Below, piece after piece: positions 20,163-25,861 of a stretch of DNA of 39,450 bases. The notes under the pieces were generated by a model. It was given only the letters and a program-made list of their open reading frames with translations. It was not told the DNA's origin and searched no databases. A program made the position numbers and the translations under genes. Source of the DNA: Bradyrhizobiaceae bacterium PARB1 (GTDB lineage Bacteria; Pseudomonadota; Alphaproteobacteria; Rhizobiales; Xanthobacteraceae); assembly GCA_002256345.1 (NCBI GenBank), contig NKIY01000019.1:1-39450 (forward strand). The letters run 5' to 3'. Every line of letters begins with the position of its first letter. Within the stretch, counting starts at the first letter, position 1.

Positions 20163-20807
20163 CTACCCCTTCGGGCAGGCCGCTCCCGCATCCACCCACG
20201 CCTTGATCAGTTCGCCGAACTGCTTCTGCGTGCCCGGCGCCGGCGTGCGGTTGCCGCCCGGCTTCCAGCCCCAGCCGACCAGTTCATCTTCCGCCATGTG
20301 ATGAACCAGCGCGGCGAGGTCCTTGCCGCCGTTGCGCTCCTTGTCCTTGATCTGCACGCAAATCTGGCCAAGCGTCTTGCCTTGCCAGGCCATCTCCACC
20401 GGGGCCAGCGACCACTTCGCGTTGCCAGGGACATTGGCGGCATCGAAGTTGTTTTCGTGGTGGCAGGTCGTGCAGGCGAGACCGCCGGCCGCGCCCATGC
20501 CGCCGTCGCCGCGCACCACCAGCGGAATATGCGGCCGCATGCGGTCCGTCTGGGTCGGACGATCGCCGGCCGGATGGCAGTTAAGACAGCGCGGCGACTG
20601 GATGACCTTGCCGGCCTCGTTGAACAGCGCCACCGCGCGCTCGTTCTTGTTCTTGATCTTCGCGAAAGCCGAGACCGGCTGCAGCGTCTTCGGATTACTG
20701 ACCGCCGCATCGGCTTCGCTCGAACCGAATTCTGCAATCGCGAGAGCGCCCGCCGAAAGCCCGCCGGCGACGAGCGCCAGCATTGCATATTTCACGATCT
20801 GCTTCAT
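20163..20807 (-). CDS. Secreted dihaem cytochrome c, partner of the oxidoreductase
   Basis: A 214-aa exported c-type cytochrome. The N-terminal hydrophobic segment (about residues 5-25) is a signal peptide or anchor. Two haem-binding motifs are present: CLNCH at 74-78 and CTTCH at 112-116. Its start overlaps the stop of the molybdopterin subunit by 4 bases, so the two are translationally coupled. The expected role is to take electrons from the periplasmic oxidoreductase and pass them to the respiratory chain. Database names such as isoquinoline 1-oxidoreductase subunit are used for this type of gene, but the substrate is not shown by the sequence. Confidence 0.88.
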
Positions 20808-22969
20808 GCCGCGGCTCCCGGTACGATCGGCAATTGTCGCGGCCGCCCCACGCCGAGCTTCGCCATCGCATTGGCGACAGCCGGTCCGAGCGGCGGCACG
20901 CCGGGCTCGCCGACGCCGGTAGGTTTCTCGGTGGACTTCACGATCGCCACCTCGACCTCCGGCATCTCATTGATGCGCAGCGAACGATAGGTGTCGAAAT
21001 TGCCCGCAACCGGTGCGCCGGCATCGAGCGTCTGTTCGGCATAGAGGATGTGGCCGAGCGCAAAGCCGATGCCGCCTTCCATCTGCGCGCGGATGATGTC
21101 GGGATTCACGGCCACGCCGCAGTCCACCGCGCACCAGACCTTGTGCACCTTCGGCCCTTCTTCGGTCATCGACAGTTCGACCACTTGCGCGACGAAGCTG
21201 TTGAAGCTCTCGACCACCGCAACGCCGCGAGCGCGGCCAGCCGGCACCTTGTAGTTCTTCCAGTCGGCAAGTTCGGCGACGGCCTTCAGCACGCCCGCGT
21301 GACGCGGCTTCTTGCCGAGCAATTCGAGACGGCCTTCGACCGGGTCCTTACCTGCCGCTTCGAGCAGTTCGTCGATGAAAGCTTCGACAGCATAGCCGGT
21401 GTGGGTGTGCCCTACCGAGCGCCACCACAATACGGGTACGCCGACATCGACCTGATGCATGTCGCAGCGGAAGTTCGCGACCTCATAAGGAATGTCGTGC
21501 GAGCCTTCGTAGGACGTCGGGTCGAGGCCGTCCTTGAACATGACGGCCTCGAAGAAGGAGCCTTTCATGATGGATTGCGAAACGATCGTGTCGCTCCACG
21601 CCTCGATCTTGCCGTCACGCACAGCGCCGCGCATGCGATGGATGCTGTAAGGGCGATAGTAGCCCCCGCGCATGTCGTCTTCGCGGGTCCAAACCAGCTT
21701 GATCGGCTTGCCGGGCCCGATCGCCTTGGCGACCTCGGCCATCTCGATCGCCTGATGGGTGGATTGCTGCGCGCGGCGTCCAAAGCTGCCGCCGGCGAGA
21801 ACCACATCGATCTTGATCTTGTCCACCGGCAGACCAAACGCCTTCGAGAAGGCCAAGTGGTCTGGCGTCGGGAATTGGCAGCCATAGCGCGCATAGACGG
21901 TTTGACCGTCCCACTTCAGATAACCGTTGAGCGGCTCCATGGCGGCATGAGCGAGATACGGAAAGACATATTCCGTCTCAATCACACGGCCGCCTTTGGC
22001 AATCGATTCCTCAAAATTGCCTTCGGCACGCACCAGCTTGCCCTGCGTTTTCGACAAAGTGCGGAACTGCTGAAGCAATTCGGCGCTACCGCGCTTCTCC
22101 GCCTTGCTGTCATCCCACGCGATCTTCAGCGCTTCGCGTCCCATCTTCGCCGGCCAGAAGCCCTTGGCGTAAACGGCAACACCGGTCGGCACCTGCTTGA
22201 CGTCGACGACACCCGGCACGGCTTTCGCCGCCGTTGCATCGAACGATCGCACCGTGCCGCCAAATTTCGGCGAGCGCGCCACGACCACCGTCAGCATGTC
22301 GGGCTCGTTGATATCGAGCGTATAGAACGCCTTGCCATCGCTCTTATCGGCGCTGTCGAGGCGCTTCACCACGCCTTCCTTGCCGATGAACTTGAAGTTC
22401 GCCGGATCTTTCAGCTTAGGATCCGCCGGCACCGGCATGGTCATCGCCTTGTCGGCGAATTCGCCAAACCGGCCGTCCTTGCCGGATGCATGCTTGAGCA
22501 CACCGTTCTCGATGCCGATCTCGCCGGCCGGCACCTGCCAGGCTTCGGCGGCAGCTGCGACCAGCATCTGCCGTGCAGCGGCACCGACCTGCCGCATCTG
22601 CAGATACGCATTGGCGATGGCGGTAGAGCCGCCGGTCCCCTGCAAACCGAAAGCGAGATTCTTATAGAGCTCCGGATTCGACGGCGCGTGATCGGCGCGC
22701 ATCTGCGACCAGTCGGCATCGAGCTCTTCGGCAACCAACGTCGCAAAGCCGGTGAACGGCCCCTGCCCGAATTCGATCTGCTTGCACAATACAGTGACCG
22801 TGCTGTCCGGCTTGATGATGAGAAACGTATTCGGCGCGATATTGACCTTCGGCTGCGCCGCGGCCTGCGCGAACAATTTGTCGGCGCGCATCACATAAGC
22901 GCCGATGACGAGTCCGGCGCCGGCCTTCAGCAACGTGCGGCGCGATAGCTTGGTGTCGTGAACGGTCAT
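20804..22969 (-). CDS. Periplasmic molybdopterin oxidoreductase, large subunit (IorB/xanthine-oxidase family)
   Basis: Molybdenum-cofactor subunit of the xanthine oxidase family, 721 aa, single-polypeptide IorB type. The N-terminal [15 protein letters not shown] is a Tat signal, which places a folded, cofactor-loaded enzyme in the periplasm. Cofactor and active-site segments include [10 protein letters not shown], a Gly/Arg-rich QSTHQAIE region, and [15 protein letters not shown] near the C-terminus, where the Glu is the expected catalytic base. It sits 3 nt after the [2Fe-2S] subunit and overlaps the dihaem cytochrome, forming a three-gene operon. Such enzymes hydroxylate N-heterocycles or oxidise aldehydes. 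The actual substrate is unknown. Confidence 0.92.
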
Positions 22970-22972
22970 GGC

Positions 22973-23437
22973 TCAGCCCTCCAGCGATTTCGCAGCGCTA
23001 TGGATCGCAGCGCGGATACGGACATAGGTGGCGCAGCGGCAGATATTGCCGTTCATCGCCAGGTCGATATCTTCGTCGGAGGGTTTGGGATTGAGATTGA
23101 GCAGTGCAGCCGCGCTCATAACCTGACCGGACTGGCAATAGCCGCATTGCGGCACATCGTGGGCTACCCACGCTGTCTGCACCGCCTTGCCTTCCCTGCT
23201 GTTCAGGCCTTCGATGGTGGTGACTTCGCCGGACCCCACTGCCGAGACCGGCATCGAGCAGGAGCGGACTGGCTGACCGTCAAGATAGACCGTGCAGGCA
23301 CCGCATTGCGCGACGCCGCAGCCATATTTGGTGCCGGTCAAACCGGCGCCGTCACGGATTGCCCAAAGGAGAGGAGTGTCCGGGGCCACGTCAATTTGAC
23401 GCGACTCCCCATTGATCTTGAGGGTGAACGCAGCCAT
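22973..23437 (-). CDS. [2Fe-2S] subunit of the molybdopterin oxidoreductase (IorA type)
   Basis: A 154-aa small subunit carrying two [2Fe-2S] clusters: plant-ferredoxin-type Cys at 40, 45, 48 and 60, and the second set at 98, 101, 133 and 135. It has no signal peptide, so it is presumably exported bound to the Tat-targeted large subunit. It is the first gene of the operon. A perfect 22-bp palindrome lies 19 nt upstream of its ATG. Confidence 0.95.
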
Positions 23438-23593: not shown

Positions 23594-24358
23594 TCACAGT
23601 GCCCGCGCGGCATTTCCCTTGAACAAGATCGGACCAGTGGGACGCCCGATAGGAGAGCCCCCTTCTGGCTCCAGCGTGATCTCGAACAACTGGTCCTGCA
23701 CAGTTTCCGGCAACGAGGTCAGGTCGAGGTTCAGCGACCGCGACTGTCCACTCAAGCCGACGGATTTGGGACCGACACTGCGGTCCCAGAGGGTCCAGAC
23801 CTGCAATGTGCGGCCTGCCGGCACGTCGATGGCCCGCAGGGGAATAAGCTCGACCCGGCCGCTGGCAAAGGCGTTGACGACGGCGCCCGCCTCCTTGGTC
23901 GCGTCGTTCACGAGCACGGCAACATAGACCGGCTTACTCTGCGCCAGAGCGATCAACTCGTTGCGGAGCTGGCGTGACGTCCCGATCGCGCCAATCAACA
24001 CGACAGCAAGCAGCAGTGTAGCGCATACGCCACCGATGCCTGCACCTCGCCAGAAGCGGATATTGTGCCACAGCGTAGCGCCGTCGAGCGCCGCCCGGGC
24101 GCCCGGCAGCGGAATCACAGGTCTCGACTTCGTTGAATCCGCAATACGGTCCCAAAGGCCTGCGCTTGGCACGAGCGCTTCCGCGGTCGCGTCGAAATCG
24201 GCCAGACGTTCACGCCATACACCTACGGCTTTGGCAAATCCGATATCGTCGATCATGCGCTGTTCGGCGGCCGCGAGTTCTACGCCCTCCAGCAGCCCCA
24301 TGACATAGTCGGCCGCGACGTCCTCATCCTTGCGCGCATCGTTGTCGTGCATGCTCAT
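23594..24358 (-). CDS. Membrane anti-sigma factor, RskA type
   Basis: A 254-aa anti-sigma factor. The N-terminal cytosolic domain (DVAADYVMGLLEGVE, QRMIDDIGFAKAVGVWRERL) would hold the sigma factor. A single transmembrane helix (GIGGVCATLLLAVVLIGAIG) is followed by an extracytoplasmic RskA C-terminal domain (LPAGRTLQVWTL-like strands, QDQLFEITLEPEGGSP). The start at 24358 is preferred: it overlaps the sigma stop as ATGA and has AGGAG about 8 nt upstream. Release of the sigma factor probably needs regulated proteolysis, but this is inferred from the family. Confidence 0.88.
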   Translation of the reverse strand: MSMHDNDARKDEDVAADYVMGLLEGVELAAAEQRMIDDIGFAKAVGVWRERLADFDATAEALVPSAGLWDRIADSTKSRPVIPLPGARAALDGATLWHNIRFWRGAGIGGVCATLLLAVVLIGAIGTSRQLRNELIALAQSKPVYVAVLVNDATKEAGAVVNAFASGRVELIPLRAIDVPAGRTLQVWTLWDRSVGPKSVGLSGQSRSLNLDLTSLPETVQDQLFEITLEPEGGSPIGRPTGPILFKGNAARAL

Positions 24359-24933
24359 CCCATGCACTCCTGCAACGAAAACAGGCTGCGGCGAACCCAG
24401 CTCTTCACTGTCCCGAGTGGAACCTTCAGCCGTCCGGCCAATTCGCCATGACTCATGCCATGGACATAGGCCAGCACCACGACATCGCGGCGCGGCCGAT
24501 CGATCCGCTCGAGGCAGCGACGCAGCGCGGACGTCTCTGGCATCTGCGTCATCGTTGCGTCGCTATCGATATCGAGCGCGCTCTCATCCGAAGCGTCATA
24601 GCGATGCTCGTTGCGATGGATGCTCAGCGCGCGGTTGCGGACGACCGCATAAAGCCAGCCGCGCGCACTGCCGCGATGCGGATCAAACGAGGCGGCGCTG
24701 CGCCAGATCCTGACAAAGGCATCGTGAACGGCTTCTTCCGCCAGGTCCGACCTGAACAGGATGCGTCTGGCAACGCCAATCATCTTCGGCGCCTCGCTCG
24801 CATAGATCATCTGCAAGGCCGCGCGATCGCCAGCGGCGCAGCGCGCCAGCGCCGCTGCGAGTTGCGCCTCGCGCGCGGCTTCGAACCCGACATCGTCGGA
24901 CTTCGTCGTGTCGCTGACTGGATTTCCGCTCAT
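24355..24933 (-). CDS. ECF-type sigma-70 family sigma factor
   Basis: Extracytoplasmic-function sigma factor with regions 2 (DLAEEAVHDAFVRIWRSAASFD) and 4 (MSHGELAGRLKVPLGTVKSW) only. The ATG at 24933 (MSGNPVSDTT, 192 aa) is chosen because AAGG lies 7 nt before it. A longer frame to 24975 would start at the likely transcription start. It is translationally coupled to the anti-sigma gene. It is divergent from the DUF4394 gene, with a symmetric dyad between them that probably carries its own target promoters. Confidence 0.92.
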   Translation of the reverse strand: MSGNPVSDTTKSDDVGFEAAREAQLAAALARCAAGDRAALQMIYASEAPKMIGVARRILFRSDLAEEAVHDAFVRIWRSAASFDPHRGSARGWLYAVVRNRALSIHRNEHRYDASDESALDIDSDATMTQMPETSALRRCLERIDRPRRDVVVLAYVHGMSHGELAGRLKVPLGTVKSWVRRSLFSLQECMG

Positions 24934-24977
24934 AACCATGCCTTGCATGGACAGACTACCGTTGCTGTGCGGCATTT

Positions 24978-25020
24978 GGATGCACCCGGCCGGAAATTAT
25001 TTTTCCAGAGCGATGCATCC
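24978..25020. promoter_or_regulatory. 43-bp symmetric dyad, candidate bidirectional ECF promoter
   Basis: Arms in order: GGATGCA (24978-24984), 7 nt, GGAAA (24992-24996), TTATT, TTTCC (25002-25006), 7 nt, TGCATCC (25014-25020). The layout is exactly symmetric about 24999. Each strand therefore reads GGAAA-N17-TGCATCC, with -35/-10 spacing suited to a sigma factor, pointing toward the sigma gene and toward DUF4394. Confidence 0.6.
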
Positions 25021-25087
25021 GTTCGGAGCCCCGCGTGAGTAGGCCCTGTATCGGTCCCGAGGGGATCGCAGAAACAGGGAGCCTACC

Positions 25088-25861
25088 ATGTTACTTCGTT
25101 CGCTTTTCATAGCCTCGACAGCTCTGCTGCTGACATCCGCCGCCGCCAATGCCGCTCAGGTCGCCGCGCTGATCGGTGGTGATACCATCGCGATGGTCGA
25201 TACCGCGCAGAAGAAAGCCACCGGTACGGTGAAAGTCAGCGGCATCAACGGAATGCTGGTTGGCATCGACATCCGCCCGGCCGACGGCATGCTCTACGGC
25301 CTTGTCGATGACGGAACCGTGGTGACCATCGACAAGGCCGGCAAGGCAACGATGAAGTCGAAGCTCGACACCATGCTGACCAAGGGCGTCACCGCCACCG
25401 TCGATTTCAACCCGGTGGCCGATCGCCTGCGCGTGATGGGCTCCGACGGCACGAGCCTGCGCGTCAATGTCGATGACGGCAAGGTGACGAAGGACGGCGA
25501 CCACAAATATGCTGAGACAGACATGCACAAGGGCGAGAAACCCAATGTGATCGCCGGCGCCTACACCAATTCGGTGAAGGGCACCAAGGAGACGGCGCTG
25601 TTCAATATCGACGGCACCATCGGCGCACTCGTCAAGCAGGCGCCGCCGAATGACGGCATTCTCGGCGCCGTCGGCAAGCTTGGCATCAAGCCGACGACGG
25701 TGGCCTTCGATATCTGGTCGGACGGCACCAAGAACGAAGCCTGGTTGATGGCCGACGGCACGCTCTATTCGATCGATCTGGCCACCGGCAAAGCGACCGA
25801 AGCCGCCAAGATTTCGGGCGTCACCGGCAAGGTGACGGATATTGCGATCATGGGGATGTGA
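25088..25861 (+). CDS. Exported DUF4394-domain protein
   Basis: A 257-aa secreted protein. The signal peptide MLLRSLFIASTALLLTSAAA ends near ANA-AQ (about residue 22). The rest is a DUF4394 repeat fold, likely a beta-propeller: GGDTIAMVDTAQKKATGTVK, VGIDIRPADGMLYGLVDDG, DFNPVADRLRVMGSDG. Function is unknown. GGGAG precedes the ATG. It is transcribed divergently from the ECF sigma/anti-sigma operon and faces the other half of the symmetric promoter dyad, so it is probably an output of that sigma factor. Confidence 0.85.
   Translation: MLLRSLFIASTALLLTSAAANAAQVAALIGGDTIAMVDTAQKKATGTVKVSGINGMLVGIDIRPADGMLYGLVDDGTVVTIDKAGKATMKSKLDTMLTKGVTATVDFNPVADRLRVMGSDGTSLRVNVDDGKVTKDGDHKYAETDMHKGEKPNVIAGAYTNSVKGTKETALFNIDGTIGALVKQAPPNDGILGAVGKLGIKPTTVAFDIWSDGTKNEAWLMADGTLYSIDLATGKATEAAKISGVTGKVTDIAIMGM

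Follow-up and report, generated by a model that had tools for sequence, protein, structure and literature searches.

Which parts of a symmetric DNA element between two divergent genes act as promoters, which sigma factor reads them, and would two RNA polymerases have to exclude each other there? These questions are raised by a locus on contig NKIY01000019.1 of Bradyrhizobiaceae bacterium PARB1, where the gene for an extracytoplasmic function (ECF) sigma factor and the gene for a DUF4394 protein are oriented in opposite directions. In the window, i.e. the whole stretch of 39,450 nucleotides that was analysed, the dyad GGATGCA-7-GGAAA-5-TTTCC-7-TGCATCC was located at 24978-25020, in full agreement with a preliminary description of this DNA. 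We consider it probable, at roughly 0.84, that the dyad represents two back-to-back promoters for the adjacent ECF sigma factor, the AT-rich centre serving both as an upstream (UP) element. Comparison with related loci established the promoter boxes, their spacings, an AT block at the position of an UP element, and the co-occurrence of all these with the sigma gene. The genes concerned are as follows.

24355..24933, minus strand: ECF sigma factor gene, SigK-like; alternative starts possibly at 24948 or 24939
23594..24367, minus strand: anti-sigma factor gene (RskA_C, PF10099, 3.6e-21), with the start as listed by the open reading frame finder
25088..25861, plus strand: DUF4394 gene, the proposed target (PF14339, 2.2e-68)

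Conserved boxes and their distribution

The pattern GGAAA-N15..19-TGCATCC (N, any base) gave two matches in the window, one on each strand and both exactly at the dyad, against 0.02 expected from shuffled sequences. The 6.95 Mb genome of the same organism gave six matches, against two for the reversed-pattern control. Judged from these window and genome counts against the shuffled and reversed controls, the symmetric pair is beyond chance. The four matches outside the dyad are spaced N15, N16, N16 and N18, and the genome search for GGAAA-N17-TGCATCC proposed earlier thus returned nothing with N17 besides the pair in the window.

For comparison, the best 80 of 254 loci with DUF4394 relatives were collected. 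A tblastn search with the sigma factor of the window gave a match in 72 of the 80 loci and none in eight, including L118, where the contig ends; L118 was dropped before pairs were counted. With the window added, the set consisted of 73 loci carrying the sigma gene and seven usable loci without it. A facing pair, defined as GGATGCA...TGCATCC allowing up to one mismatch in each arm and an arm spacing of 10-70 bp, was detected in 70 of the 73 loci with the sigma gene, in none of the seven without it, and in 28 of 365 shuffled regions. The previous proposal of a symmetric divergent pair, very probably read by the adjacent ECF sigma factor, is upheld by this distribution. The three sigma-carrying loci without a called pair are L138, in which the two halves are far apart, and L147 and L156, in which one half was found at one mismatch or less and the other, by eye, with two mismatches. 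No sigma relative was detected at E <= 1e-35 in the six searched genomes (completeness not stated) among the seven lacking an adjacent sigma gene, L150 being excluded. The symmetric dyad is real and widely conserved.

The elements assigned to the two promoters are listed below, the sigma gene being on the left and the DUF4394 gene on the right.

24978..24984, minus strand: predicted -35 box (TGCATCC) for the sigma gene, with GTA behind it at N18; 70 of 73 loci have the facing arms
24957..24959, minus strand: predicted -10 core GTA of the sigma-gene promoter; 66 of 70 loci (non-redundant set, 41 of 45) have GTA at N17 or N18 on the left
25014..25020, plus strand: predicted -35 box TGCATCC of the DUF4394 promoter, from the pattern match and facing arms
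25039..25041, plus strand: predicted -10 core GTA of the DUF4394 promoter; 56 of 70 loci (non-redundant set, 35 of 45) have GTA at N17 or N18 on the right

Counts based on pairs refer to the 70 pairs, 45 of them non-redundant, and are anchored on each TGCATCC. For L162 and L120 the pairs picked by the script were wrong or secondary; both loci were kept in the counts of 70 and 45 and excluded from the analyses of the AT-rich centre and its polarity. The trinucleotide GTA was found at N17 after TGCATCC in 31 of 70 loci on the right and 47 of 70 on the left, and at N18 in 25 and 19 loci, respectively, with no case at N16 or N19 on either side. In six control windows of four spacings each, the corresponding counts were 0, 0, 0, 0, 9 and 0 on the right and 2, 1, 0, 0, 3 and 1 on the left. 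TGCATCC-N17/18-GTA, a spacing of the ECF promoter type, was present on both sides in 55 of the 70 loci (34 of 45 non-redundant). The distance between the two arms varied from 23 to 47 bp among the 70 pairs while the distance to GTA was fixed, and therefore each arm is positioned relative to its own GTA and independently of the other arm. The per-column profile of both sides showed three conserved blocks: TGCATCC plus the next base, a purine; the region around GTA; and an AT block spanning about -54 to -46. All this fits a role of TGCATCC as the predicted -35 box, at -36 to -30.

The preliminary description had assigned GGAAA as the -35 box and TGCATCC as the -10 box, an assignment contradicted by the GTA lying 17 or 18 bp downstream of TGCATCC. 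Within N15-19 from TGCATCC, GGAAA was found in four of 70 loci on the right, in four of 70 on the left, and on both sides only in the window and in L157 (2/70); as a -35 box it was rejected for this lack of conservation. When one mismatch was allowed the counts increased to 26 of 70 on the right and 38 of 70 on the left, which we put down to the AT-rich centre. No conservation is seen in the GGAAA columns (-58 to -54) of the right side; on the left, a preference for A is limited to the last two columns, at the onset of the AT block. Of the symmetric dyad, relatives keep the arms but not GGAAA. This case shows that, with one sequence only, a -35 box is easily mistaken for a -10 box.

The number of targets was examined with a promoter profile made from sequence only, comprising 64 promoters of the 68 prepared, four of them from the window and from G001, a genome of the genus, with the weak-tract loci L140 and L152 left out. 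In the genome of the organism itself, with 150 of 2798 first-look candidates scored, the window pair gave 32.8 and 26.3 bits, and the next best site 13.5 bits. Among 18 genomes of the genus, all nine with both genes intact hold both sites, at 16.8 to 33.6 bits. The separation of true sites is clean in the own genome and incomplete across the genus. The simpler pattern TGCATCC-N14-18-GTA gave 27 matches in the own genome, including the window pair, and its reversed form 11; the other 25 matches were tried as targets, none being convincing by eye and none ranked by the profile above 13.5 bits. Weak additional targets may exist in this genome. Since only the window pair stands out in 6.95 Mb, the result suggests a regulon of one locus.

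Predicted starts and leaders

The features of the predicted transcripts are as follows.

24948, minus strand: predicted +1 of the sigma operon (A, ninth base after GTA), located at an in-frame ATG
25050, plus strand: predicted +1 of the DUF4394 mRNA (A, ninth base after GTA)
25052..25068, plus strand: predicted stem-loop at the 5' end of the DUF4394 leader, from folding z
25076..25081, plus strand: ribosome-binding-like AGGGAG, from the sequence

Among the 35 GTA-bearing promoters on the right side, the ninth base after GTA is a purine in 97% and the preceding base a pyrimidine in all 35. On the left side (41 promoters), a purine is present at the ninth base in 83% and at the eleventh base in 88%. 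Counted from these starts, TGCATCC occupies -36 to -30 and GTA -11 to -9, which is normal promoter geometry. A distance of 102 bp separates the two predicted starts and one of 29 bp the two -35 boxes, with no overlap between the core promoters. The predicted arrangement is back to back; the face-to-face one proposed before, with binding forced to be simultaneous or mutually exclusive, is not supported, and the part shared is the AT-rich centre in place of a common -35 zone. With predicted starts at A24948 and A25050, the leaders of about 38 nt for the sigma gene and 61 nt for DUF4394 also had to be revised.

The predicted DUF4394 leader in the window is 38 nt long, with AGGGAG ahead of the ATG at 25088. 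In 35 loci, the 26 nt at the 5' end of the predicted DUF4394 mRNA gave a mean folding z of -1.81, with 29 of the 35 below -1, while the upstream control stretch gave a mean of 0.03, with one of 35 below -1. The first hairpin pair falls at +1 to +5 of the predicted start in 35 of 35 loci, and the stem sequences visibly differ. As an independent sign, the leader hairpin supports the predicted start on the DUF4394 side. Folding z-scores were used in place of covariation, the MAFFT alignment of leaders having misplaced the hairpins. Rfam yielded two hits for the locus, both far below their gathering scores. The stem-loop at 25050-25075 keeps a near-constant position, its stem sequence varies across families, and the leader is about 40 nt in most loci.

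On the sigma side, in-frame ATG codons are located at 24948, 24939 (+10) and 24933 (+16). Because the predicted start coincides with the first of these and more follow at +10 and +16, the sigma mRNA would be leaderless or carry a leader of 15 nt at most. A short palindrome, CCATGCAAGGCATGG, at 24935-24950 straddles the predicted sigma start; several Bradyrhizobium loci have CTATGCAAGGGCATAG there, and the palindrome is kept even where the first ATG is out of frame.

The AT-rich centre and competing explanations

24994..25004, no strand: AT-rich centre AAATTATTTTT, spanning -56 to -46 relative to either promoter and proposed as a distal UP element common to the two

The centre of this tract in the window is 15 bp from each box, corresponding to -51 for both promoters. 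In 31 non-redundant loci with centres of up to 31 bp, the AT content peaks near -50 of both promoters, at about 0.9 against a background of 0.37, and the middle of the tract falls within -45 to -55 of either promoter. The tract has A on the left and T on the right in 22 of these 31 loci, the reverse in five, and neither in four. According to PMC4496709, the distal UP-element site is centred at -52 and the proximal one at -42. An A/T tract near one of these positions was found in the window, but not for the left promoter in most long-centre loci. Taken by position and composition, the AT centre is probably a shared UP element. A general rule of two AT tracts in every long-centre locus was rejected; it is true, for example, of L121 and L123, and not of L131, L135, L143 and L149.

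In the mechanism we propose, each promoter would be composed of TGCATCC at -36 to -30, an 18-bp spacer (17 bp in many relatives), GTA at -11 to -9, then 8 bp and a purine start. The left promoter would direct transcription of the sigma and RskA-type anti-sigma genes, giving positive autoregulation with the anti-sigma factor as the limit, and the right promoter would direct transcription of DUF4394. The AT centre may be contacted by the C-terminal domains of the RNA polymerase alpha subunits, and one UP element could serve both promoters because the -35 boxes are so close. That one element serves both polymerases is less certain than activation of its own operon and DUF4394 by the sigma factor. 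With non-overlapping cores and the distances given above between boxes and between starts, simultaneous binding of two polymerases is possible, and sharing would be needed only for the contacts at the centre.

Two relatives with separated or lost halves bear on this model. In L138 the halves of the dyad are 696 bp apart, and each keeps an AT tract, a -35 box and GTA before its own gene, the left box with one mismatch. A reading frame of 188 codons (1674-2240 of L138) lies between the two halves. In G005, a genome of the same genus (contig 6, 118380-118560), DUF4394 is nearly lost beside an intact sigma gene, only a 39-residue stretch being matched; the right promoter has lost its box, and the left one retains its AT tract, GTA and a -35 box with one base changed.

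The best surviving alternative is that of two independent ECF promoters, with the AT centre being a bent spacer or a site for a nucleoid protein and not an UP element. UP activity is deduced only from position and composition, and some loci with weak or displaced tracts would agree with independence. We regard it as rather unlikely, since the tract centre keeps to -45 to -55 of both promoters, with a mean near -50, in the 31 short-centre loci, the A-left/T-right polarity is seen in 22 of them, and each half of L138 has its own tract. An operator for a dimeric repressor or activator would account for the inverted arms that 70 of the 73 loci with the sigma gene possess in exact or one-mismatch form; this is highly improbable, however, because the arm-GTA distance is fixed (17 or 18) while the arm-arm distance is variable (23-47), the halves are split in L138, and single arms stand beside a lone DUF4394 gene in L117, L144 and L163. 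An operator of fixed spacing was rejected on the variable arm distance and the separated halves of L138. Interlocking promoters that exclude each other, with GGAAA as -35 and TGCATCC as -10, are the least credible: the window sequence agrees with this reading and GGAAA is similar to the GGAAC known from many ECF promoters, but the GGAAA columns are mostly unconserved, GGAAA recurs on both sides in 2/70, and arm distances of 23-47 bp would break the fixed -35/-10 spacing inside the dyad.

Several observations weigh against back-to-back promoters with a shared UP element. The arm match was itself a selection criterion, and the conservation of the arms is partly built in; GTA, the AT block, the purine and the hairpin were not selected for, but the purine and hairpin counts were drawn from GTA-bearing loci only. 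The right GTA is missing in 10 of 45 and the left GTA in four of 45 non-redundant loci, and GTA also occurs at N26 or N27 on the right side in nine of 70 loci. The start on the sigma side is less certain than that on the DUF4394 side because the eleventh base is a purine more often than the ninth. The palindromy of the centre barely exceeds that of shuffles (4.58 vs 4.15). In the 12 long-centre loci the main left AT peak is near -61 and the right peak stays near -48, and L140 and L152 show only weak AT tracts; for these two reasons the shared element is not universal. Elsewhere in the genus, sites score 19.9 (in G012, unrelated), 17.4 and 17.2 bits, values that overlap those of the weaker true sites, which start at 16.8 bits. 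Finally, L117, L144 and L163, with DUF4394 and no neighbouring sigma gene, retain the right half-promoter; these halves may be relics, the result of an assembly gap, or in use by another sigma factor. Of the other loci lacking the sigma gene, L096, L128 and L139 have no half-promoter before DUF4394, and L150 has none there at one mismatch; two unrelated matches elsewhere in its 5.8 kb indicate the chance level of the half-promoter scan.

For back-to-back promoters around one tract, a further and tentative idea is that the alpha C-terminal domains of two polymerases compete for a single distal UP element at -51, and this would couple or balance the sigma operon and its only evident target; lengthened centres would have released this coupling through a second tract or a displaced one.

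The sigma factor and related systems

The sigma factor matches Pfam models of region 2 (PF04542, 1.9e-15) and region 4 (PF08281, 1.2e-11), and its only further match is PF04545, a region-4 model overlapping PF08281, the domain content of an ECF sigma factor. The anti-sigma gene is co-oriented and directly downstream, as in the SigK-RskA type, and a match to the window anti-sigma factor is found beside the sigma gene in 71 of 72 sigma-matching relatives, the exception, L094, being truncated by a contig end. The closest solved structure is mycobacterial SigK (4nqw, 6e-20). Scores against the NCBIfam SigK model NF007228 (119.7 bits; cut-off 226) and the best NCBIfam model, PRK12537 (191.2 bits; cut-off 261), are both below cut-off, and the protein is therefore called SigK-like only. 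The -35 motif of mycobacterial SigK, CCATCC, resembles the GCATCC found here, and the -10 element here differs from that of SigK.

By alignment with 4nqw, C140 and C190 correspond to two SigK cysteines. Among sequences with a letter at the position, C140 is kept in 71 of 71, C190 in 70 of 71 and C32 in 70 of 70. As stated in PMC7509140, the SigK cysteines 133 and 183 are conserved in 94% of ECF18 and 56% of ECF19; the pair here was assigned by alignment. Given the conserved pair and that report on SigK, a redox input to the sigma factor is plausible. The same paper describes RskA as both inhibitor and activator, and SigK as autoregulated through the Rv0449c promoter and driving mpt70 and mpt83. 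The present system thus resembles SigK-RskA of Mycobacterium tuberculosis and Yersinia enterocolitica in the structural match to SigK, the RskA_C anti-sigma factor and the aligned cysteines, and differs in that the neighbour of the sigma gene is DUF4394 and the promoters form a symmetric divergent pair, in contrast to SigK autoregulation via the Rv0449c promoter.

Two other systems are comparable. In HrpL-hrpJ of Pseudomonas syringae, an ECF sigma gene is likewise divergent from a target across one intergenic region, with an UP-like sequence near the target promoter; according to PMC5263251, hrpL is sigma-54 dependent and repressed by RNA polymerase-HrpL at hrpJ, whereas the same ECF-type promoter is predicted here on both sides. 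Escherichia coli bidirectional promoters share with this locus the pseudo-symmetric DNA and divergent mRNAs of linked genes; the starts of those studied in PMC12825309 are 10-23 bp apart with shared core elements, in contrast to the predicted 102 bp and separate cores here, and on these predictions the locus is not an overlapping bidirectional promoter of that kind. We rate the back-to-back symmetric pair as a variant of already known divergent and bidirectional promoter arrangements. Within the literature searched, which covers few subscription papers, no paper names DUF4394, and none brings together an ECF sigma factor, divergent transcription and an UP element in those terms; the promoter motif may already be listed among the group motifs of ECF classification.

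As to the remaining genes, the DUF4394 protein has, by eye, a signal-peptide-like N-terminus. Downstream of the anti-sigma gene on the same strand (20163-23437) are genes for the small and large subunits of a molybdopterin-type oxidoreductase and for a protein with CxxCH motifs (by eye) and no Pfam match.

The comparison supplies a precise and testable promoter definition for a widespread SigK-like alphaproteobacterial sigma factor, which appears uncharacterised in view of the absence of DUF4394 from the searched literature. The regulon of this sigma factor may be a single divergent locus, and the short, long, split and half-lost centres among relatives form a natural series on how two polymerases share upstream DNA.
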